From IMG/VR virus record IMGVR_UViG_3300049473_000071, positions 1 through 28,967 of that record: a stretch of DNA of 28,967 bases; one strand, given 5' to 3'. Source of the stretch: a virus. The notes beneath the pieces are model-generated. The model was not told the DNA's origin and ran no database searches. It was given only the letters and a program-made list of their open reading frames with translations. Below, in pieces: positions 3,161-22,079 of the stretch. A program made the position numbers and the translations under genes. How positions within the stretch are numbered: position 1 is the stretch's first letter; each line of letters begins with the position of its first letter.

Positions 3161-3370
3161 ATGAATGGTAATAATCTTTTTCCTTTGTGGCTCCCTAAAG
3201 GCTCGGTAAGAGCGTTAATTGCTTTGGGAGTTGTTGCATCAACTATACTCATCGCGATAACGCAGCAGAGTGTCCCGGAAGTTCTTGGAACTCTGGCTGG
3301 CGTCGTTGTTACGTTCTATTTCAAGGATCGGGAGCGAGCTCAGGAGAAAAAGCCCGAATCCGGTGAGTAA
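3161..3370 (+). CDS. Small membrane protein, holin-like
   Basis: A 69-residue protein with a strong Shine-Dalgarno (AAGGAGG). It has a WLPKGSVRALIAL motif, two hydrophobic stretches (about residues 16-34 and 40-54), and a charged C-terminal tail (KDRERAQEKK). The LPxGSVRAL start leading into a membrane helix recurs in small phage and bacterial membrane proteins of unknown function. Given the peptidase and lipoprotein neighbours, a holin or holin partner is the best guess. Its stop overlaps the next ATG (TAATG). Confidence 0.65.
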   Translation: MNGNNLFPLWLPKGSVRALIALGVVASTILIAITQQSVPEVLGTLAGVVVTFYFKDRERAQEKKPESGE

Positions 3371-3591
3371 TGGCCTTAGGTGCTTGGATTTTGGCCGTCA
3401 GGACGGCTATAGACGTTTATAAGCTGGTTAGGGAGGAGATAAAATATGAGAAAACTACTGGCGTTGTTCTTGATGATAGCCTTCTCGCTCGTGTGCGCAA
3501 GTTGCGAGATGCTTCAGCTAAAAAAGCCGGAACAAAGCGAAAAAGTAATAACGAACATACTGGCCAGACGCGTAGCCTATATGATTGGTAA
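3370..3591 (+). CDS. Hypothetical protein; possible inner-spanin-like gene
   Basis: A 73-residue protein starting in a TAATG overlap. The N-terminus (GAWILAVRTAIDVYKLV) is amphipathic to mildly hydrophobic, and the remainder is basic and helical. The last 146 bases are shared, in another frame, with the start of a lipoprotein gene. This nested layout resembles Rz/Rz1 spanin pairs, in which an inner-membrane protein overlaps an outer-membrane lipoprotein. The membrane segment is weaker than in typical Rz, so the function is tentative. Confidence 0.5.
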   Translation: MALGAWILAVRTAIDVYKLVREEIKYEKTTGVVLDDSLLARVRKLRDASAKKAGTKRKSNNEHTGQTRSLYDW

Positions 3592-3871
3592 GAATAATCC
3601 GGATAAGGTAGATAGTTGGCTCAAATGGGTTGACAAGGGATTGTCCCTTAAACCTGGGGACACGCCTCTAGCACTGGAATCCTTATTGACTGACCTTCTT
3701 GGCTATGCTGATATAGAACCTCTGCTGCGCAAAGACATTGAAGATTTAATCTCTCTATTTGATATGCCCGAGTTACAGCCTGTAGATTCTCAGTATTTAG
3801 CGGAAGTTTATATAGAGAGAATACGACTGATCTTCAATGGATTCAGAGAAGGCCTGGAACTGGCCTCTTAA
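3446..3871 (+). CDS. Lipoprotein; possible outer-spanin-like
   Basis: A 141-residue protein with a strong GGAGG at 3432-3436 and a clear export signal: MRKLLALFLMIAFSLV followed by CASC, with Cys20 the likely lipidated residue. The mature part is helical and soluble, with no known domain. It starts inside the previous gene in a different frame. It is longer than typical Rz1 (about 60 residues) and not proline-rich, so an outer-spanin role is only a hypothesis. Other exported phage lipoproteins block superinfection. Confidence 0.7.
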   Translation: MRKLLALFLMIAFSLVCASCEMLQLKKPEQSEKVITNILARRVAYMIGKNNPDKVDSWLKWVDKGLSLKPGDTPLALESLLTDLLGYADIEPLLRKDIEDLISLFDMPELQPVDSQYLAEVYIERIRLIFNGFREGLELAS

Positions 3872-3910: not shown

Positions 3911-4690
3911 GTGAGGAGGTTACTAGCTTTTTTAATAGCCCTAGGACTTATTCTTTTTCCAGGTGCTCTGCTGGCTGCAGATAGGATTGAGGCAGAGAGC
4001 ATGGTTCTCACGAACTATGTAGTAGATTCTACGAATGTGTTCCCCTGGTTCTCTGGGAAGATCGTCAAGACAACTGGTACTGGTTCGGCGAAAGCTTCGT
4101 ATGTTTCTAACATGGCTGGTTACTATGATTTGAAAATTGCTTATATTGATGAATCCGATGGAGTTGGAAAAATAGCTGTTTTTAAGAATGACGTGACGAT
4201 CGACCAGTGGACGCTTAACCTTGATGTTGCAGATATAAGCTCGGAAAATAGCTATACTAGTAGGATTATCTTGAACGTTCCTCTTAACCCTGGAGATGTT
4301 ATTACTATCCAAGGAATCAGACATGAAGGAGAATTTGCTCGTGTTGATTATCTGGAGTTGATACCTCTGTATAGCAAATCGCTAACACTCGGTTGGGATG
4401 TTGGTTATGATCCGGATGGTGACCTGGCTGGCTATCGTCTGCATTACAAGATGAATACCCCTGGCCCACCTTATAATGGCGTGGGGCTAGTAGAGGGGAA
4501 CTCCCCGATAGATGTTGGGAACGTCGTGGAGTACGCCCTTTCTGGGCTTCAGATAGGAGTTTATTATTTTGTAGTCTCAGCATACGATGCTAGAGGGAAT
4601 ATCAGCGGCTACTCGAATGAGCTGGTATACGAAGTACAGGAAATAGGAGCAAGACCGCCTGTAGGCCCTCCGAGCCTTAGGATCAAATAA
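3911..4690 (+). CDS. Exported carbohydrate-binding (CBM6/35-like) and fibronectin III protein
   Basis: From the GTG at 3911 this is 259 residues. A Sec signal peptide covers 1-22 (VRRLLAFLIALGLILFPG, then LLAA). A beta-sandwich domain at about 25-155 begins IEAESM, contains a GYYDLKIAYID strand and ends with ARVDYLELIPL, as in CBM6/CBM35-type modules that bind sugars. A fibronectin type III domain follows at about 160-245 (LTLGWDVG, GYRLHYK, YYFVVSAYDARGNISGYSNE). GGAGG lies four bases before this GTG. An upstream GTG at 3884 is in frame but has no clear ribosome site and would lengthen the signal unusually. Glycan binding at the cell surface or on the virion is inferred. The signal peptide is unusual for a phage fibre-type protein. 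Confidence 0.75.
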   Translation: MRRLLAFLIALGLILFPGALLAADRIEAESMVLTNYVVDSTNVFPWFSGKIVKTTGTGSAKASYVSNMAGYYDLKIAYIDESDGVGKIAVFKNDVTIDQWTLNLDVADISSENSYTSRIILNVPLNPGDVITIQGIRHEGEFARVDYLELIPLYSKSLTLGWDVGYDPDGDLAGYRLHYKMNTPGPPYNGVGLVEGNSPIDVGNVVEYALSGLQIGVYYFVVSAYDARGNISGYSNELVYEVQEIGARPPVGPPSLRIK

Positions 4691-7500: not shown

Positions 7501-7965
7501 ATGAAACGCTTATCAATCCTCTTTCTCACCGCCATCCTCTGCCTCATGCCGATATGGGGATGGGGAGCAACCGAAACCTTCTATCTCACCGCCACGGGCG
7601 CGGGTACTAAGTCCGGCACTTCCCTTGCCAATGCCATGAGCCCCACGGAGTTCAACAATGGCGCCAATTGGGACACAGATGACCAAGACGATGACAAGAT
7701 AGGCCCGAATGATGATGTTGAGGTCTATGACGACCATGGGGTAATCCGGGCGCAGTTAACCATCCAGAAATCCGGCCTGAGCGGGAAACCGATCACAATC
7801 AAGGCGGGGAGTGGGGGGACTGTATATTTGGAGATGACAGTTAGCGGTGTGGATAACTATGGCGGGTGTACTAAAGCATTTCCGGTTATCTTCAAGACCG
7901 ATATTTACGCGGATATCTCGGGAACTGGAGCGAGTTACATCATAGAGTATGTAATACTTCATTAA
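7501..7965 (+). CDS. Exported beta-helix-like protein, short form
   Basis: A 154-residue protein with strong GGAGG and a Sec signal peptide of about 22 residues (MKRLSILFLTAILCLMP, then GWGA). The mature start TFYLTATGAGTKSGTSLANA and the later GLSGKPITIKAGSGGTV match the entry turns of right-handed parallel beta-helix proteins such as pectate-lyase-like enzymes. It ends soon after, with only about 50 residues beyond that motif, much less than a full beta-helix. It may be a truncated tailspike-like protein or a small binding module. Its signal peptide resembles that of the tailspike-like gene at 18531. Confidence 0.65.
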   Translation: MKRLSILFLTAILCLMPIWGWGATETFYLTATGAGTKSGTSLANAMSPTEFNNGANWDTDDQDDDKIGPNDDVEVYDDHGVIRAQLTIQKSGLSGKPITIKAGSGGTVYLEMTVSGVDNYGGCTKAFPVIFKTDIYADISGTGASYIIEYVILH

Positions 7966-7978
7966 TTCGAGGTTTGCA

Positions 7979-8182
7979 GTGTTAGGCGAAATTGGGATAG
8001 GGGCTGTTATTCTTGGTTGGTTTGGCTCCCTTGAATATAGATTGCGGAATATGGTCTCCAAGGAGCGTTTTGGTGATTTGAAGGAGCAAACTAATCGTGT
8101 GGAAGCGAAAATAGATGCTCTGTTACTCAAGAACGGTCTAGATCCAAAGAAGCATGATAACGAAGGACGACCCGGAAGTTAA
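7979..8182 (+). CDS. Small single-pass membrane protein with coiled coil
   Basis: A 67-residue protein from a GTG start, with an N-terminal hydrophobic segment (residues 2-18, IGIGAVILGWFGSL) and then a charged helix (KERFGDLKEQTNRVEAKIDALLLK) likely to form a coiled coil. The ribosome site is weak (GAGG). It overlaps the start of TerL by 29 bases. Size and topology fit a holin accessory or XhlA-like membrane protein, or an inner spanin. None is certain. Confidence 0.6.
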   Translation: MLGEIGIGAVILGWFGSLEYRLRNMVSKERFGDLKEQTNRVEAKIDALLLKNGLDPKKHDNEGRPGS

Positions 8183-9674
8183 GGAGATCCTTCAACAGTG
8201 TTATCTTTCCACTAAGGTAACAGCGAAGGTTCTCTTTCCAGACTTATTTTATGGGGAGTTCTCTCCTCTCCACGATCAAATAATTGATCTTATTGATTCT
8301 GGAGTGCAAAAGATTGCTATCGCTGCTCCACGTGGAATTGGCAAGACGACGATTGCTCGGACGGTAGTGTCTAAAAGTATCTTATTTAGAGATACTAATT
8401 TCATTGCCTACGTGTCCAATTCTGCGACTGTTGCAGAAATGCAGACGGAGAATATCAAGCGAGAACTTCAATCGAACGACGTTACAAGGAGGCTTTTCGG
8501 TGATATTAAGATTGCAGATTCGAGGACTGCTGGTCTGGATGATACGTTTTCCAAGCTCTCTTGGGTTGCGTTTGGCTCTTCGCTCGTGCTTCCTCGTGGA
8601 GCCCAACAGCAAATCCGTGGTCTTCTTTGGGGTAAACATAGGCCACAGCTCATTATTGTGGATGATCTCGAAAAGAAAGAAGAACTCAGAAATCAAGAAA
8701 ACCGAGAAAAGCTAAAAGAATGGTTCTTCTCGGATCTTATGAAGTGCACCAATAGATATAAAAACGATTGGCGTATAATTTATATAGACACGTTGAAACA
8801 TGAAGATTCTTTATTGCAGCTATTATTGGAATCAGACGATTGGGAGCATCTTAGGCTTTCTGTCTGCGATACGAATTACAATTCTTTAGCTCCATCATTC
8901 ATCTCTACCGAGGAGGTTAACGAAGAAGTAGAATCCCATCGTAAGAAAGGTATATTGGATGTATTCTATATGGAATTCATGAATATGCCTACTGGTGGGG
9001 AGGATGCTTCATTTAAGGAAGAGAATTTCAAGTATTATAATGAGACAGACGACGAGTTCAGAAAGAAAATCCTTCCTAGGTTGGAGAGTGTGGTCATCTT
9101 CGATCCTGCTAAAACGGTAAAGATGCAAAGTGCTGAGAGTGCTATCGTGGGAGTCGGAATTGATCTTCAAGGAGCCGGGATATATGTTCGTGATATAGTC
9201 TCCGAAAGATTATATCCAGACCAAGCTTATGATGAAATTTTCCAGATGTGCGCTCGTTTGAATGCTAGAGTGTTAGGTGTCGAAGTAACTGGGCTGCATG
9301 AGTTCGTGACTCAGCCCATCAGAAACGAGATGCTAAAAAGAAAAACGCTTTTCGAGTTAGTTGAATTAAGTGCTCGAAAGGGCGAGGGGGAGCCTGGGAA
9401 GGTAGCTCGGATTAAACAACTTGTTCCTTATTATCGTCAGGGTTATGTTTATCATAATAGAAGCTGCTGCGGTGGGCTTGAAGCCCAGCTCTTGAGTTTC
9501 CCTCGCTCGAGACTCTGGGACATTATGGATGCGCTAGCGTATATCATCGAGATGATGAGTCTTGGTGATAGGTACTTCGAGCCCACCGCAGATTCGGATG
9601 AGGATCAAGAAGAGGATTATAGAGAGCTCGAAAGTGAATATGAGCCAATCTTAGATAATTGGAGAGTTGTATAA
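8154..9674 (+). CDS. terL: Terminase large subunit
   Basis: A 506-residue protein, a normal length for TerL. The N-terminal ATPase shows Walker A at residues 58-66 (APRGIGKTT) and Walker B at 166-173 (LIIVDDLE, with DD plus catalytic Glu). An IYIDT segment follows near 235. The C-terminal RNase H-like nuclease shows VIFDPAKT, VEVTG and the final WDIMDALAYI motif, which supply the metal-binding acidic residues. TerL docks on the portal, pumps DNA into the prohead and cuts the concatemer. The C-terminus ends in an acidic stretch (ADSDEDQEEDYRELESEYE). The gene overlaps the small membrane-protein gene upstream and touches the next gene by a TAATG overlap. Confidence 0.95.
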   Translation: MITKDDPEVKEILQQCYLSTKVTAKVLFPDLFYGEFSPLHDQIIDLIDSGVQKIAIAAPRGIGKTTIARTVVSKSILFRDTNFIAYVSNSATVAEMQTENIKRELQSNDVTRRLFGDIKIADSRTAGLDDTFSKLSWVAFGSSLVLPRGAQQQIRGLLWGKHRPQLIIVDDLEKKEELRNQENREKLKEWFFSDLMKCTNRYKNDWRIIYIDTLKHEDSLLQLLLESDDWEHLRLSVCDTNYNSLAPSFISTEEVNEEVESHRKKGILDVFYMEFMNMPTGGEDASFKEENFKYYNETDDEFRKKILPRLESVVIFDPAKTVKMQSAESAIVGVGIDLQGAGIYVRDIVSERLYPDQAYDEIFQMCARLNARVLGVEVTGLHEFVTQPIRNEMLKRKTLFELVELSARKGEGEPGKVARIKQLVPYYRQGYVYHNRSCCGGLEAQLLSFPRSRLWDIMDALAYIIEMMSLGDRYFEPTADSDEDQEEDYRELESEYEPILDNWRVV

Positions 9675-10111
9675 TGGCAGTTAAATGGATAAAGATAGGA
9701 TCTTTTGGGCCGTTCAAATATGACGATGCGGTCTCGACGTATGCCTTAGAAACGGACGGAGATGTCTCGTTTGGAAGTGGTGGAGGTGCCTCGATAAAAT
9801 TACTTGATACTGACGAATCTAATACTCTTGAACTTAAATGGAATGAGAACGATACTGTTAATAGAGTCCTGAATTTCTTGGTTAATAGCGGAAATCGCTC
9901 TATATCGCTTAGCGGAAACCTTACCGTAGAGGCAGCAAGCCTGTTAAATCAAGATTTAACAAGCGATACAAGTCCTTCGTTTCTGTCACTATTTCTGACA
10001 GGAATCAAATCTGGCGCTACTCAAGTTGCTGCTGGGGCGGTCGCTAACGAGTTGTGGAAGACAAGTGGACATGCTACTTTGCCTGATAACGTGGTAATGA
10101 TTGGAGTCTAA
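9674..10111 (+). CDS. Head-fibre or tail-fibre-like structural protein
   Basis: A 145-residue protein from an ATG overlapping the TerL stop, with GGAG nine bases upstream. The middle (GNLTVEAASLLNQDLTSDTSPSF followed by LTGI) is a phrase seen in many phage fibre proteins, and the protein ends in ATLPDNVVMIGV. Low cysteine, beta-rich composition and a glycine-rich segment (SFGSGGGAS) fit a trimeric fibre or capsid decoration. The position between TerL and portal suggests a head component. Confidence 0.6.
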   Translation: MAVKWIKIGSFGPFKYDDAVSTYALETDGDVSFGSGGGASIKLLDTDESNTLELKWNENDTVNRVLNFLVNSGNRSISLSGNLTVEAASLLNQDLTSDTSPSFLSLFLTGIKSGATQVAAGAVANELWKTSGHATLPDNVVMIGV

Positions 10112-14957: not shown

Positions 14958-16253
14958 ATGTTCGGTATGAGAGGCACGGGCGATTGGGCTACTGACCAGC
15001 GTCCGTACAACTGGCGTCAGACTATCCTCTACCTCTACCCTAACGGAATGGCGCCTCTGACGGCAATTCTAAGCAAACTGCCGGAGGAAAAGGTAGATGA
15101 TCCTCAGTACCATTGGTGGACGAAGATTCTGGCTTCACAGAAGTCGACTGGTACAGCTGGTGCATATATCTACACGGATGCTACACTGGCTACTGCATGC
15201 TCTGGTGCTATAAGTTCGGGTGATACGGTCTTCGTGAAGATGACTGCGGCCCACGTAGCTCATTTTCGTGTAGGTCATGTGGTAACGATGAGAGATGCCA
15301 GCGATTATAGATGTGATGCCAACGGTAAGGTCACGGCTGTTCAAGTAAACGGCTCAAGTTCCTATTGTGCTGTGAAGATGTTGGAGGACGAGAATCAGGG
15401 AACCGGTATGACGACTATTGATCAGGTTCTAATCACTGGTAATGTGAACCCTGAAGGTGGAACGAGGCCTGAGGCTATTTCGTATGATCCTGTAAAGTGG
15501 TATAACTATACTCAGATCTTTAGAACTCCTATGGAGATCACACGAACCGCTCGCGAGACCAGGCTAAGAACTGGTGACGCATATAAAGAAGCGAAGCGGG
15601 AGTGTCTAGAGCTCCACTCAATCGAGATGGAGAAGGCGTTCTTGTGGGGTTATAGATCTGAAGGCACTGGGTCTAATGGGAAGCCTGAGCGGACCACTAT
15701 GGGTCTTATTAGGGCCATCCAATATGGCTCTGATGGGACAGCTAATGTCGGCGTGACTAACGATTACGTTGCAAACGCCACTTACTCTGGCCAGACCTGG
15801 CTACAGGGTGGCGAGGATTGGTTGGATGAGCAGCTTGAGCAGATCTTCCGTTATGGAAGGCCTGAGAAGCTAGCTTTCGCTGGCTCTGGTGCGCTATTAG
15901 GTATCCAGAGGCTGGCCAAGGCGTCTGGGCAAATTCAACTTACTCCCGTATCCACATCTTACGGGATTAAGGTCTTGCAGTGGATTACTCCCTTCGGGGT
16001 AATCAATGTCAAGACTCATCCTCTCTTTAGCTTTGAGTCTACTAATCTCTACTCGATGGTTATCTTCGAGCCTGAGGATCTAAGATACCGCTACGTTACG
16101 GATACTATGTTCCGCAAGGCTCCGCCGGATAATCAGTCGCAAGTTGAGATCGACGGTACGGTTGAGGAGTATTTGACTGAATGTGGTCTTGAGTATCATC
16201 ATCCTAACGGATGGGCGTACTTGAACGGCTTCAATCAGACCAATACGGCCTAA
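14958..16253 (+). CDS. Major capsid protein (SU10 / DUF5309-like)
   Basis: A 431-residue protein with GGAGG eight bases before its ATG. It has the pattern I associate with the SU10-type (DUF5309) HK97-fold capsid protein: an N-terminal LYPNGMAPLTAILSKLPEEKVDDPQYHWWTK region, a YNYTQIFRTPMEITRTA segment, an ELHSIEMEKAFLWG helix, and the C-terminal GIKVLQWITPFGVINVKTHPLF strand. It forms the icosahedral shell. It is followed by a terminator-like hairpin, as is common for a strongly expressed gene. The family assignment is from memory. Confidence 0.88.
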   Translation: MFGMRGTGDWATDQRPYNWRQTILYLYPNGMAPLTAILSKLPEEKVDDPQYHWWTKILASQKSTGTAGAYIYTDATLATACSGAISSGDTVFVKMTAAHVAHFRVGHVVTMRDASDYRCDANGKVTAVQVNGSSSYCAVKMLEDENQGTGMTTIDQVLITGNVNPEGGTRPEAISYDPVKWYNYTQIFRTPMEITRTARETRLRTGDAYKEAKRECLELHSIEMEKAFLWGYRSEGTGSNGKPERTTMGLIRAIQYGSDGTANVGVTNDYVANATYSGQTWLQGGEDWLDEQLEQIFRYGRPEKLAFAGSGALLGIQRLAKASGQIQLTPVSTSYGIKVLQWITPFGVINVKTHPLFSFESTNLYSMVIFEPEDLRYRYVTDTMFRKAPPDNQSQVEIDGTVEEYLTECGLEYHHPNGWAYLNGFNQTNTA

Positions 16254-18063: not shown

Positions 18064-18290
18064 TGGCTGAGAAATGGATTCAAGGCGCAATTAAAAGACC
18101 GGGAGCTTTCACGGAGAAGGCAAAGGCAGCTGGCATGAGTGTACAGGAGTATGCTGCAAAGGTAACGGCTCCTGGAAGTAAAGCTAGCACTCGCACCAAA
18201 AAGCAGGCAAATCTGGCTAAAACACTTAGAAAGATAGCTAGACATTCTTGTGACTATGGTGAGTTTATGCTGAAAAGGGCCAAGTTATAA
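18063..18290 (+). CDS. Basic small phage protein
   Basis: A 75-residue, lysine-rich protein starting MAEKWIQGAIKRPGAFTEKAK and ending in a basic helix (KTLRKIARH). The KWIQxAIKRPGAF start recurs in small phage proteins next to the DUF3008-like gene. It is coupled by TAATG on both sides. Function is unknown; a DNA-binding or packaging-related virion protein is plausible. Confidence 0.65.
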   Translation: MAEKWIQGAIKRPGAFTEKAKAAGMSVQEYAAKVTAPGSKASTRTKKQANLAKTLRKIARHSCDYGEFMLKRAKL

Positions 18291-18520
18291 TGCGCGAGTT
18301 CGAGGTTCCATTTAGAGAGGGATTGACGAAGGGCCTTCGTCGCCACTCTAAGAATCCTCTTAATACGGAGGCTTTGGTTGAATGTCATAATCTAGCTCCG
18401 ACAGAGTTTGGGTTGGAGCCTCATGAGGATATTATTCTTATGACTGCCGTCGAGTTAGTTTTGACTACTGAGGCTGGGGAAGGAATACTAACAGAGGGCG
18501 AAGATCGCATAGTCTTTTAG
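18290..18520 (+). CDS. N-terminal part of a tail protein, apparently split
   Basis: A 76-residue protein starting MREFEVPFREGLTKGLRRHS and continuing NPLNTEALVECHNLAPTEFGLEPHE. That opening is, from memory, the N-terminus of a ~500-700 residue phage tail protein, not a complete small protein. The frame stops at 18520. The sequence expected after it (a WPYP motif and following strands) appears 2.2 kb further on, at the start of the gene at 20676. The tailspike-like gene lies between. It may be a functional split subunit or a remnant. The ribosome site is AAGGG with a TAATG overlap. Confidence 0.65.
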   Translation: MREFEVPFREGLTKGLRRHSKNPLNTEALVECHNLAPTEFGLEPHEDIILMTAVELVLTTEAGEGILTEGEDRIVF

Positions 18521-18530
18521 GAGGAGAAAA

Positions 18531-20600
18531 ATGAAAAGGTGGAAAGTATATTTTCTTGCTTTATTACTCTGTCTAAGTCCTCTTGCAGTAGGGGCTGCAG
18601 ATGTAAAGATTTCTGATCTGACAGAGCTAAACGCTACTCCTACACATGATGATGATTTTGTAGTGGTGGATACTTCTGAGGCGACTACTAAGCGGATAAC
18701 GGCAGCCAATTTGCTAAATGCCGAGGATGTCGACGCTCGCGGAGGAATCGCAGCTTCTGTAGCGTATTGGAATTCGGATGGTGGCGATAAGGCTCTTTTA
18801 GTAAAGTCTCCTCAAACTATTTCGGCTGATCTGACGGTAAATAGCAATATTCATCTCGTCTTCTTAAAAGGCGGGGTTATTACGATCACTGAGGCTCATA
18901 CACTTACCATTAATGGACCCAAATCGGCTGGTTGTCACCAAATATTCGCAGGAGACGGAAGCGTCGAATTCGGTCCAGATGCAACTGAAGAGGTCTATCC
19001 AGAGTGGTTCGGGGCAAAAGCAGATGGAACCACGGACGACACAACGGCTATCGAGAACGCAATCGGAAGTATGACAGGGGGAGATAGGTTGATCTTTCCA
19101 GGCACCGGCACTGGCACTTATGCGATAAGTTCAACATTGAGCCAACTGCCAGATGACGTGGAGGTTGAGTTCCTTCCAGGGGCGAAGATAACCAAGGTTT
19201 CGGGTACGGGCTCTATTGAGTTCTTTACCCCGGGCGATAATAACATCCTGCGTGTGAATATAGATGCGGGAGAATCCTCGCCGTGGGGGGTTGAAAGCCG
19301 ATCAACTGGTATCTACTCCGCAGCAACCTATAATGGAGGAACACCCGTAAACAATGTCGTCATTCACGATTCGGTCATCGAAAATATATACGCACCTATC
19401 AGGGGAGACGGGGCGAAATATTGGAAAATTCATAATAATCAAATTATTACAAGTGGAGTATCTGGAATCCTTTTTGGAGCGGATGCTGATTCAACAGGAG
19501 CAGTAAGCCACAATATTATTACTGATAATTATTTGGAGGATATTGGCGATTGTGCAGTGGCCTTCTTCAAACTAGAGAATAATTCAGTCATTTCCTATAA
19601 TACAGTTGCCAACAATAATATAAAGAACACCAATACGGAAACAGGTGGTTATGCACTTAATATTGAACCTGGAAATGCTTCTGGATATCAACATCACAAT
19701 GTATTCGTAGGCAATCTAGTTGAACAGACTGACGATTATACATCTTATATTATGGGAGGAGTTCAACTTGGAGACTATTGCGAACATTGCGTAGTAACAT
19801 CCAACATACTTAAAGGTAATTTCCTGAATGCTGCACATGGAATTATTGTCCCCAATGGAAACTTTAATTTGATCGCAGGTAATAGTATAGATAATTTTTA
19901 TACGAATGGTATCTTCGTTTATGGAGGAAGTTTCATAACTATTAGTAACAATTTGATAGTTAATTGTGGTCACAGCTATACTTCTGGTGGAATAAGGTTT
20001 GCATATGCAGGTTATGGAATTGACCATCTTAAAATACATGGCAATTCCATTTCCTACAGCGATGGTTTTGGCGAGAAGGCCACTGGTATTTACTCACAAG
20101 GAGACGCATCTTCCCCATGTAGCCACGTGACGGTTTCTGATAACGACATTCGCGGATGCGTTGGTTACGGGGCGATATGCCTATACGGAACGGATAGCGG
20201 TGGTGAGATCACCGATCTTAAAGTAAAAGATAATAGCATTTGGGATATTACGCCCGATGGCGGTTATACGATTGATATATATTACGCGGACGGCGTTGTG
20301 GTTTGCAATAATACTATGGTAGACTGTACACTTCCCTTCCGTACGTCCGGATGCACTGAGCTATCTGTTTACCGGAATCAAGGCTTTGTGACGGAGAACG
20401 AGGGCATTACAGGTTCTATCGCTACTGGTACAGCGGTTGATCATGGATTAGACGGAACACCTGACATCGTAATTGTCACAGCAGCAGAAAGCGGTCCCAC
20501 GGACGTATACACATCGGAGGTAGGGGCTACAAGCTTTAAGATCAACTTCGGTGGAGGCGGAAATAAGACGTTCTACTGGAGGGCTATTTATAAGCCATAA
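18531..20600 (+). CDS. Tailspike-like beta-helix protein with Sec signal peptide
   Basis: A 689-residue protein with strong GGAGGAG. Residues 1-23 are a textbook Sec signal peptide (MKRWKVYFLALLLCLSPLAV, then GAAD). Next comes a fibre-type linker (VKISDLTEL, residues 25-33). A beta-helix entry motif (EWFGAKADGTTDDTTAIENA, 158-177) leads to a right-handed parallel beta-helix to about 610, with repeated N-x-I/V turns and asparagine ladders (HDSVIENI, ITDNYLEDI, VSDNDIRGC). The C-terminal ~65 residues are a small beta domain (HGLDGTPDIVIVTAAES, TFYWRAIYKP) seen on phage fibres. It should bind or cut surface polysaccharide. I see no certain catalytic triad. Export by Sec is unexpected for a virion spike. 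Confidence 0.8.
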   Translation: MKRWKVYFLALLLCLSPLAVGAADVKISDLTELNATPTHDDDFVVVDTSEATTKRITAANLLNAEDVDARGGIAASVAYWNSDGGDKALLVKSPQTISADLTVNSNIHLVFLKGGVITITEAHTLTINGPKSAGCHQIFAGDGSVEFGPDATEEVYPEWFGAKADGTTDDTTAIENAIGSMTGGDRLIFPGTGTGTYAISSTLSQLPDDVEVEFLPGAKITKVSGTGSIEFFTPGDNNILRVNIDAGESSPWGVESRSTGIYSAATYNGGTPVNNVVIHDSVIENIYAPIRGDGAKYWKIHNNQIITSGVSGILFGADADSTGAVSHNIITDNYLEDIGDCAVAFFKLENNSVISYNTVANNNIKNTNTETGGYALNIEPGNASGYQHHNVFVGNLVEQTDDYTSYIMGGVQLGDYCEHCVVTSNILKGNFLNAAHGIIVPNGNFNLIAGNSIDNFYTNGIFVYGGSFITISNNLIVNCGHSYTSGGIRFAYAGYGIDHLKIHGNSISYSDGFGEKATGIYSQGDASSPCSHVTVSDNDIRGCVGYGAICLYGTDSGGEITDLKVKDNSIWDITPDGGYTIDIYYADGVVVCNNTMVDCTLPFRTSGCTELSVYRNQGFVTENEGITGSIATGTAVDHGLDGTPDIVIVTAAESGPTDVYTSEVGATSFKINFGGGGNKTFYWRAIYKP

Positions 20601-20631
20601 TTGACATTAAGCATATTTTTTGAGGATTCTG

Positions 20632-20676
20632 ATGGCAAAGTCAACAGATATTACGACTATCGGGTGGATTAACTAA
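20632..20676 (+). CDS. 14-residue frame coupled to the tail gene
   Basis: A small frame, MAKSTDITTIGWIN, with GAGG seven bases before its ATG and a stop overlapping the next ATG (TAATG). It lies after a TTGACA at 20601 that has no clear -10. It could deliver ribosomes to the tail gene, or it could be a remnant of the join of a formerly continuous gene. Too short for any family call. Confidence 0.35.
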   Translation: MAKSTDITTIGWIN

Positions 20677-22079
20677 TGGGAATTGATGCTTGCTGCGGGA
20701 ATTGGAGTATTTCATGGCCTTATCCTAGAGCCCTCTTCCTGGGCAGCTATGTGTTGGGCTTTACCACAGCTGATATAGGTGAGTGCCAAAGAACAACGCC
20801 CGTAGGGGTAGATACCCTCGTGATGTTCGAAATGTATTATCAGTACGGTCAATGGCATGCTGTTCCGATATATAATTTCGGCGATCCGGATGATGTCGAC
20901 CAGATAGATGCAGCTGATTTTGGCGATTTCTATGTCGTGACCACATTCGGAGTAGACTCAGATGGTGATCCTATTCTCAGGGGTTGTATAAGGGACGCAG
21001 CAGTAGATTCTATGTGGGGGGCAGTTTCTCCTCTGCCCACTGTTTCTGCTCCCAAGTCTATTTCTTGCTGTAACTTTAATGGTCAGTGTATTATAGGCGG
21101 GGTTTCCTCGACTGAAGAAACCTGGAAAGGTTTGTGCCTAAACACTGTTGGATGGAGCGGGATCGGGAGCTACGAGTTTAGACCTGATGAGAATAAGACA
21201 GCTGGCTTCATGCCTTTGCCGTGGGCAAAACCTTGGGGGTCGGAACATAGGGTTCATGATAGAGTTAGAGGTTACAGGGGAGCAATATATAGAGTAGCCA
21301 AGCTTGGTAACAAAGTCGCAGTTTATGCCGACGAGGGAAGAGCAATTCTTGTTCCTTATTCTCAGGAGACAGCTTCAGGATTTGGGCTAGGAAGGTCCGT
21401 CGGGGGAGGCATAGCTTCTGGGAATCATATGGCAGGAGACGATAATATTCACTGCTTTATTGATGCATATAGGGATTTATGGCTTATTGATTCCAGCATG
21501 AAGGAAACCAAACTAGGCTATAGAGAATATATGGATAATCTATTAGATGAAATTGGTCCTACTATCATTACATATGTTCCTTCAAGAAAGAGATTCTATA
21601 TAAGTAACGGGGTCGAATGCTATGTGCTTACAGAACACGGCCTCTACTCAACTCATCAACTCGTCACCTCTGTTGGGGACTATCGAGGAAATGGTTTATT
21701 CGGCTTTTGGAAGAGTTCTGGGGATATTAAAGGAAGGATTACGACTGACACAATAGACTTTGGGCTTAGGGGGTTTAAAACGCTTTCGTGCACGGAATTA
21801 GGTGTTAATACTAACGAGGTCGATCAAGGCATAAAAATCTCTATTCATACGAGATCAAATAGTAAGGATGCTTTTACCCAATCTTCCTGGCGTTTGGCTA
21901 ATAAGGAGGGGGTCTCGATGGTTCCTCATACAGCTCAAGAATTTCGAGTAAGTGTGCAGGCGGACTCATACTCTGGACTGAATCTAAGTTACATAAACAA
22001 CCACGTCAAAGTAGTGGATAGAAGGTTTGTTAGGGGAGTATATGCTATGCAGAAATATGCAGAAGGACAGAGGGGATAA
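20676..22079 (+). CDS. Tail protein, C-terminal part of a split tail gene
   Basis: A 467-residue beta-rich protein. It opens with CGNWSISWPYPRALFLGSYV, which looks like an internal sequence of podovirus tail (stabilisation or tubular B-like) proteins. It continues with blade-like repeats (FGDFYVVTTFG, AVYADEGRAILVPYS, HCFIDAYRDLWLIDSS, GLYSTHQLVTSVGDYRG) and ends VDRRFVRGVYAMQKYAEG. I expect the N-terminal ~75 residues to be those encoded at 18290-18520. It probably forms the tail tube/nozzle below the adaptor. The ATG is coupled to a 14-residue frame. Assignment rests on pattern memory only. Confidence 0.7.
   Translation: MGIDACCGNWSISWPYPRALFLGSYVLGFTTADIGECQRTTPVGVDTLVMFEMYYQYGQWHAVPIYNFGDPDDVDQIDAADFGDFYVVTTFGVDSDGDPILRGCIRDAAVDSMWGAVSPLPTVSAPKSISCCNFNGQCIIGGVSSTEETWKGLCLNTVGWSGIGSYEFRPDENKTAGFMPLPWAKPWGSEHRVHDRVRGYRGAIYRVAKLGNKVAVYADEGRAILVPYSQETASGFGLGRSVGGGIASGNHMAGDDNIHCFIDAYRDLWLIDSSMKETKLGYREYMDNLLDEIGPTIITYVPSRKRFYISNGVECYVLTEHGLYSTHQLVTSVGDYRGNGLFGFWKSSGDIKGRITTDTIDFGLRGFKTLSCTELGVNTNEVDQGIKISIHTRSNSKDAFTQSSWRLANKEGVSMVPHTAQEFRVSVQADSYSGLNLSYINNHVKVVDRRFVRGVYAMQKYAEGQRG

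Follow-up and report, generated by a model that had tools for sequence, protein, structure and literature searches.

A tailspike-like protein with a predicted Sec signal peptide is encoded in the late region, of podovirus type, of the virus record analysed here, a linear record of 28,967 bases (the window) from an uncultivated short-tailed phage. Judged from the sequence, the protein is a phage spike with a real start and a strong signal, and the signal recurs as an optional module at the front of adaptor-type spikes. The usual view is that tail spikes fold and assemble in the cytoplasm. A signal that is recurrently retained on spikes of unrelated uncultivated phages would either break this rule or reveal a secreted counterpart of the spike, and it may be that certain phages export spike proteins across the host membrane rather than just incorporating them into particles. 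Our favoured reading, to which we give slightly less than an even chance, is that the protein is a polysaccharide-directed spike that is exported by Sec and acts in the periplasm and at lysis.

A tailspike-like gene with a predicted signal peptide

The spike gene and its parts are as follows.

18531-20600, plus strand: signal-bearing tailspike-like protein of 689 amino acids (ORF with Shine-Dalgarno sequence; Pfam Beta_helix/NosD; PHROG tail spike)
18519-18524, plus strand: AGGAGG ribosome-binding site of the spike, read from the sequence, overlapping the stop codon of the N-terminal part of the hub gene
18531-18596, plus strand: Sec/SPI signal peptide of 22 amino acids by a home-made rule, with predicted cleavage between VGA and ADV
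18606-18719, plus strand: 'ISDL' fibre-type N-terminal domain, which in other phage tail proteins lies at residues 2-5
18816-19130, plus strand: spike adaptor region (TLTINGP..AG.HQIF..VYPEWFGA)
19728-20315, plus strand: right-handed parallel beta-helix body (Pfam PF13229, PF05048)
20376-20585, plus strand: C-terminal domain of the spike (43% identity with the spike of MW202733)

Translation from the ATG at 18531 is backed by a perfect Shine-Dalgarno sequence, AGGAGG, and the next in-frame ATG, GTG or TTG codons (codons 45, 46 and 61) lie within the N-terminal domain and have no ribosome site. An alternative start removing the signal, which the earlier note had named as a refutation, was looked for in the spike gene of the window, and no start was found that keeps the N-terminal domain while dropping the signal. 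By a simple home-made rule, used in place of SignalP for all signal calls in this work, the N-terminus has the n-, h- and c-regions of a signal peptide with an AXA-like cleavage site (MKRWKVYFLALLLCLSPLAVGA, followed by ADV), and of 20,000 N-termini produced by resampling or shuffling, only 0.06-0.26% reached its score. The ORF, its start and its signal are thus as the earlier note had described them.

The spike matched Beta_helix (E=3e-14) and NosD (E=2e-10) in Pfam and tail spike in PHROG (E=1e-17), and its last 70 residues are 43% identical to the beta-helix protein encoded after the hub gene in podovirus MW202733 (UOF81157). Together with the ISDL domain, these matches bear out the fibre-type N-terminal, beta-helix and C-terminal domains assigned before. 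With podoviral virion tailspikes (P22 gp9 type; MW202733 UOF81157) the window spike shares the right-handed beta-helix, the fibre-type N-terminal domain and the adjacency to the hub gene. It differs from the P22 gp9-type tailspikes in its location within a split hub gene and in the Sec signal, which precedes the N-terminal domain by its 22 residues so that this domain is not at the very start. The mature spike would have 11 cysteines, and one may speculate that they form periplasmic disulphides. Sequence searches found no relative in the PDB and no close full-length relative in IMG/VR or phage records, and an AlphaFold model from the single sequence was unusable (pLDDT 34).

A signal fused from a bacterial gene, which had also been put forward, fits less well. 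The domains downstream of the signal all match phage-type proteins, nothing related to the signal and N-terminal domain together turned up in a scan of bacterial genomes, and the signals in the window are partly alike in DNA, as described below.

Signals recur on spikes that share the adaptor region

Among 43 other distinct complete phage proteins in IMG/VR with the ISDL domain, which always starts at residues 2-5, none has a signal ahead of it. Of the generic phage spikes whose N-terminus is complete, 67 in all, only one carries a signal, and this spike (L068) lies on the same contig as L153. A signal is not the norm for these phage proteins, as had been supposed. In contrast, the survey of relatives suggested in the earlier note found a signal on 9 of the 19 spikes that share the adaptor region (the window, L037, L148, L150/L159, L153, L156, L157, L158 and L161) and none on the others (L149, L151, L152, L154, L155, L160, L162, L003/L040, L012/L014 and L045). 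The difference from the generic spikes and the ISDL proteins (Fisher p about 2e-6) comes from modest counts, that is, from surveys of mostly contig fragments and not from a census. The queries included hand-made consensus sequences, which were substituted for the adaptor-region profile in the locus search since that profile is too diverse.

The signal-free L151 has an N-terminus of a well-known virion type, and two further signal-bearing adaptor-type spikes (L269 and L275) were found after the 19 had been counted. Signal-bearing spikes lie near a baseplate gene (L156), beside tail-assembly genes (L269), or downstream of large virion-protein-like genes (L148, L153 and L158). Since about half of the adaptor spikes have signals, and these spikes lie in the tail loci of various types of phage, the signal is a recurring module at their front that is optional. 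In a collection of 50,697 isolate records, the signal-bearing spikes had no match or matched at the generic spike core only.

In the spikes at L019:5942, L024:1327 and L046:947, the signal and the first 100 or so residues are 74-94% identical, while the body of about 500 residues is replaced. This is what would be expected if the signal is retained and the glycan target changes.

Other signal-bearing products

Two further ORFs of the window have a clear signal.

3911-4690, plus strand: signal-bearing FN3 protein of 259 amino acids
7501-7965, plus strand: signal-bearing short beta-helix-type protein of 154 amino acids

The earlier note had counted at least four exported products. Three are clear (3911, 7501 and 18531), and the fourth, 3446-3871, is only probable, its lipobox (VCAS-C) being atypical. 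At 3370-3871, an overlapping ORF pair with a lipoprotein-like start on the second ORF resembles an overlapping spanin pair. The product of 7501-7965 is predicted to be exported as claimed; what had been called a fragment belongs to a viral beta-helix family in which 6 of 10 distinct members have signals by the rule and 8 of 10 by eye.

Such genes also travel together elsewhere. In G003/L058, a relative of the window by terminase and capsid, genes for four proteins (one LamG-like, one beta-helix-like, one of 166 amino acids, and a spike) stand in a row, all signal-bearing by rule or eye; the run (L058:8267-15964) is upstream of the terminase gene, and a truncated fibre lies at the contig end. 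Signal-bearing genes are also found in tandem in L148 (three) and L275 (two), and this recurrence supports the proposal that the phage encodes a set of exported surface proteins. At the DNA level, the signal at 18531 resembles those at 7501 and 3911 beyond codon-shuffled controls, and that at 3446 has no such likeness, in what is a weak test. The likeness hints that a signal module moves between genes within this phage.

An exported, polysaccharide-directed spike as the favoured reading

The main genes of the late region upstream of the spike are listed here.

8154-9674: large terminase, 54% identical to that of Desulfofustis phage OP947158
9659-10111, plus strand: short protein of fibre type, encoded between terminase and portal; it matches the N-terminal region of a signal-free, longer fibre in L002
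at 10187: portal-like gene
at 14958: SU10-type major capsid protein

The region ends with capsid, spike, hub and a large protein that runs off the end of the record. The product of 9659-10111 is very short; its counterpart in the close relative L002 is a 522-amino-acid fibre, and the window protein may serve as an anchor or represent a fibre cut short.

We favour an exported, polysaccharide-directed spike because several signal-bearing genes of glycan type travel together and because the separate signal-free fibre gene, longer in L002, provides virions with another candidate receptor-binding protein. The single usable start with its perfect Shine-Dalgarno sequence, the strong signal, the position within the late tail operon, and the high frequency of signals among adaptor spikes relative to generic spikes and same-domain proteins argue in the same direction, as does the precedent of an exported tailspike fold in WceF of Pantoea stewartii (PMC7949094). 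Late in infection, the phage would send a tailspike-derived protein through the host Sec machinery, signal peptidase would remove the first 22 residues, and the mature spike, probably trimeric, would fold in the periplasm. It would then bind or cut host envelope or extracellular polysaccharide in that compartment, on the cell surface and in the lysate, acting as one of a set of exported products; a cleaving activity is suggested by the fold family. The likely gain would be that progeny are freed from host debris or matrix, or spared loss on them. No signal for passage of the outer membrane was found, which counts against this reading; release past this membrane may come from lysis itself.

Among described proteins, the exported tailspike fold nearest to this one is that of the bacterial WceF, a glycanase encoded in an exopolysaccharide operon (PMC7949094). 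WceF and the window spike both have a tailspike-like beta-helix with an export signal and, for the window spike presumptively, a polysaccharide target. However, WceF is a bacterial protein with a Tat signal whereas the window spike is a phage protein with a Sec signal, and we claim no sequence link between them. Three levan-degrading GH32 enzymes of Bacillus phages (PMC4595243) are likewise phage-encoded with extracellular polysaccharide as the proposed target, but that study reports no signal peptide on them, and the GH32 fold differs from the beta-helix. A full-text literature search of incomplete coverage found no account of Sec signals on tailed-phage spikes.

The spike gene lies inside a split tail hub gene

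The spike gene is flanked by two ORFs and a short leader.

18290-18520, plus strand: N-terminal arm of a P22-gp10-like tail hub, as a separate ORF of 76 amino acids
20632-20676, plus strand: leader ORF of 14 codons that has a GAGGA ribosome site and whose stop codon overlaps the start of the C-terminal hub part (TAATG)
20676-22079, plus strand: tail-hub core (beta-rich nozzle) of 467 amino acids, an unsplit relative having the fold of the P22 gp10/SU10/VP1 nozzle

In relatives, a single gene corresponds to both ORFs, its start to 18290-18520 and its remainder to 20676-22079, so that the spike gene sits inside the hub gene, a placement that the earlier note had not recognised. The unsplit hub of L164 was modelled (pLDDT 78, with low confidence for residues 1-60), and Foldseek matched the model to Pa223, VP1, P22 gp10 and SU10 at E 1e-14 to 1e-9 (8eap, 7z4b, 8zkk), with several BFVD matches named P22 Gp10. 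On this model, the two flanking ORFs, taken together, would correspond to the P22 gp10/SU10/VP1 nozzle fold; unlike those proteins, the window hub is two polypeptides with the spike gene between them. The leader ORF possibly couples translation to the C-terminal hub part.

A hub of two ORFs is found in the window and 12 relatives, with the split at either of two positions. The first, between the N-terminal arm and the ordered core, is used in the window, L055/L166 and L165/L167, and the second, in the loop between 'CNxNGQ' and 'WSxIG', in L059, L060, L065, L169-L171 and L173-L176. The hub is unsplit in L051, L057/L168, L062/L164, L063 and L066. It is also unsplit at L061:15201-17093 (the same gene as L043:11133-13019), where a carbohydrate-binding-like domain stands in frame at the first split site. 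On a tree of capsid proteins, the split or whole state needs at least 4 changes, or 6 if the two sites are kept apart, counts that exchange of tail modules among phages would inflate. In relatives, the genes in the hub gap include ones for RCC1-like and Kelch propellers and fibre-like proteins, which are of receptor-binding type, and the rule detected no signal in any of them. If the hub gene is split time and again at two positions to make room for receptor-binding-type genes, this would show how a host-range part can be exchanged without breaking the tail.

An intron in the hub gene found no backing, as the window has no Rfam match and 18290-20800 gave only chance-level matches at a loose threshold. 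Flanking direct repeats that might mark an insertion were also sought, and the only pair, of 23 nt and 74% identity, is weak, lies within the spike gene and is likely due to chance.

Alternative readings of the signal

Because the spike occupies a hub slot used for receptor-binding-type genes, a role in the virion must stay in consideration, and this slot, together with the intact fibre-type N-terminal domain, points to the particle and against the favoured reading. The spike could be made in the periplasm, lose its signal and attach to the hub or the short fibre at lysis, in which case it would be a genuine spike of the virion, though assembled by an unusual route. We regard this as possible though rather unlikely. 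In vitro, the tailspikes of P22 join heads that are already complete, and in the window spike the fibre-type domain stands immediately behind the signal. The swapping of bodies behind a conserved signal and N-terminus resembles a receptor-binding protein, the closest C-terminal match (MW202733) follows a hub gene, and no signal-free fibre candidate was seen in G003, which is an incomplete contig. On the other hand, the window has a separate short fibre gene, no docking partner was identified, and the route is documented for no known tailed phage within the searchable literature. A broader form of the idea, in which a class of uncultivated phages exports receptor-binding spikes to the periplasm by Sec and joins them to particles only at lysis, here in a naturally split hub-gene slot, seems to us a little less likely still.

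Less probable again is a signal that is weak, ignored or vestigial, with the spike folding in the cytoplasm before Sec can act and entering virions as usual. Fast-folding proteins can evade Sec, and the remainder of the protein is an ordinary spike. However, the signal is strong, such signals are kept across many divergent phages, even where the body is replaced (L019/L024/L046), and the same N-terminal domain elsewhere has nothing ahead of it.

It is improbable that the exported spike is a non-enzymatic blocker or decoy that binds the host surface receptor against superinfection or re-adsorption to debris. Llp of T5 is a known exported blocker, and the spike is an exported late product with a receptor-binding fold, but the beta-helix class is usually enzymatic and a route through the outer membrane is missing.

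An artefact, be it a wrong start, a chimeric assembly or bacterial contamination, is very improbable, for although the gene comes from one metagenome contig and has no full-length relative in IMG/VR or phage records, it has a perfect ribosome site and an operon context, the same kind of gene occurs in many independent contigs, and split hubs recur.
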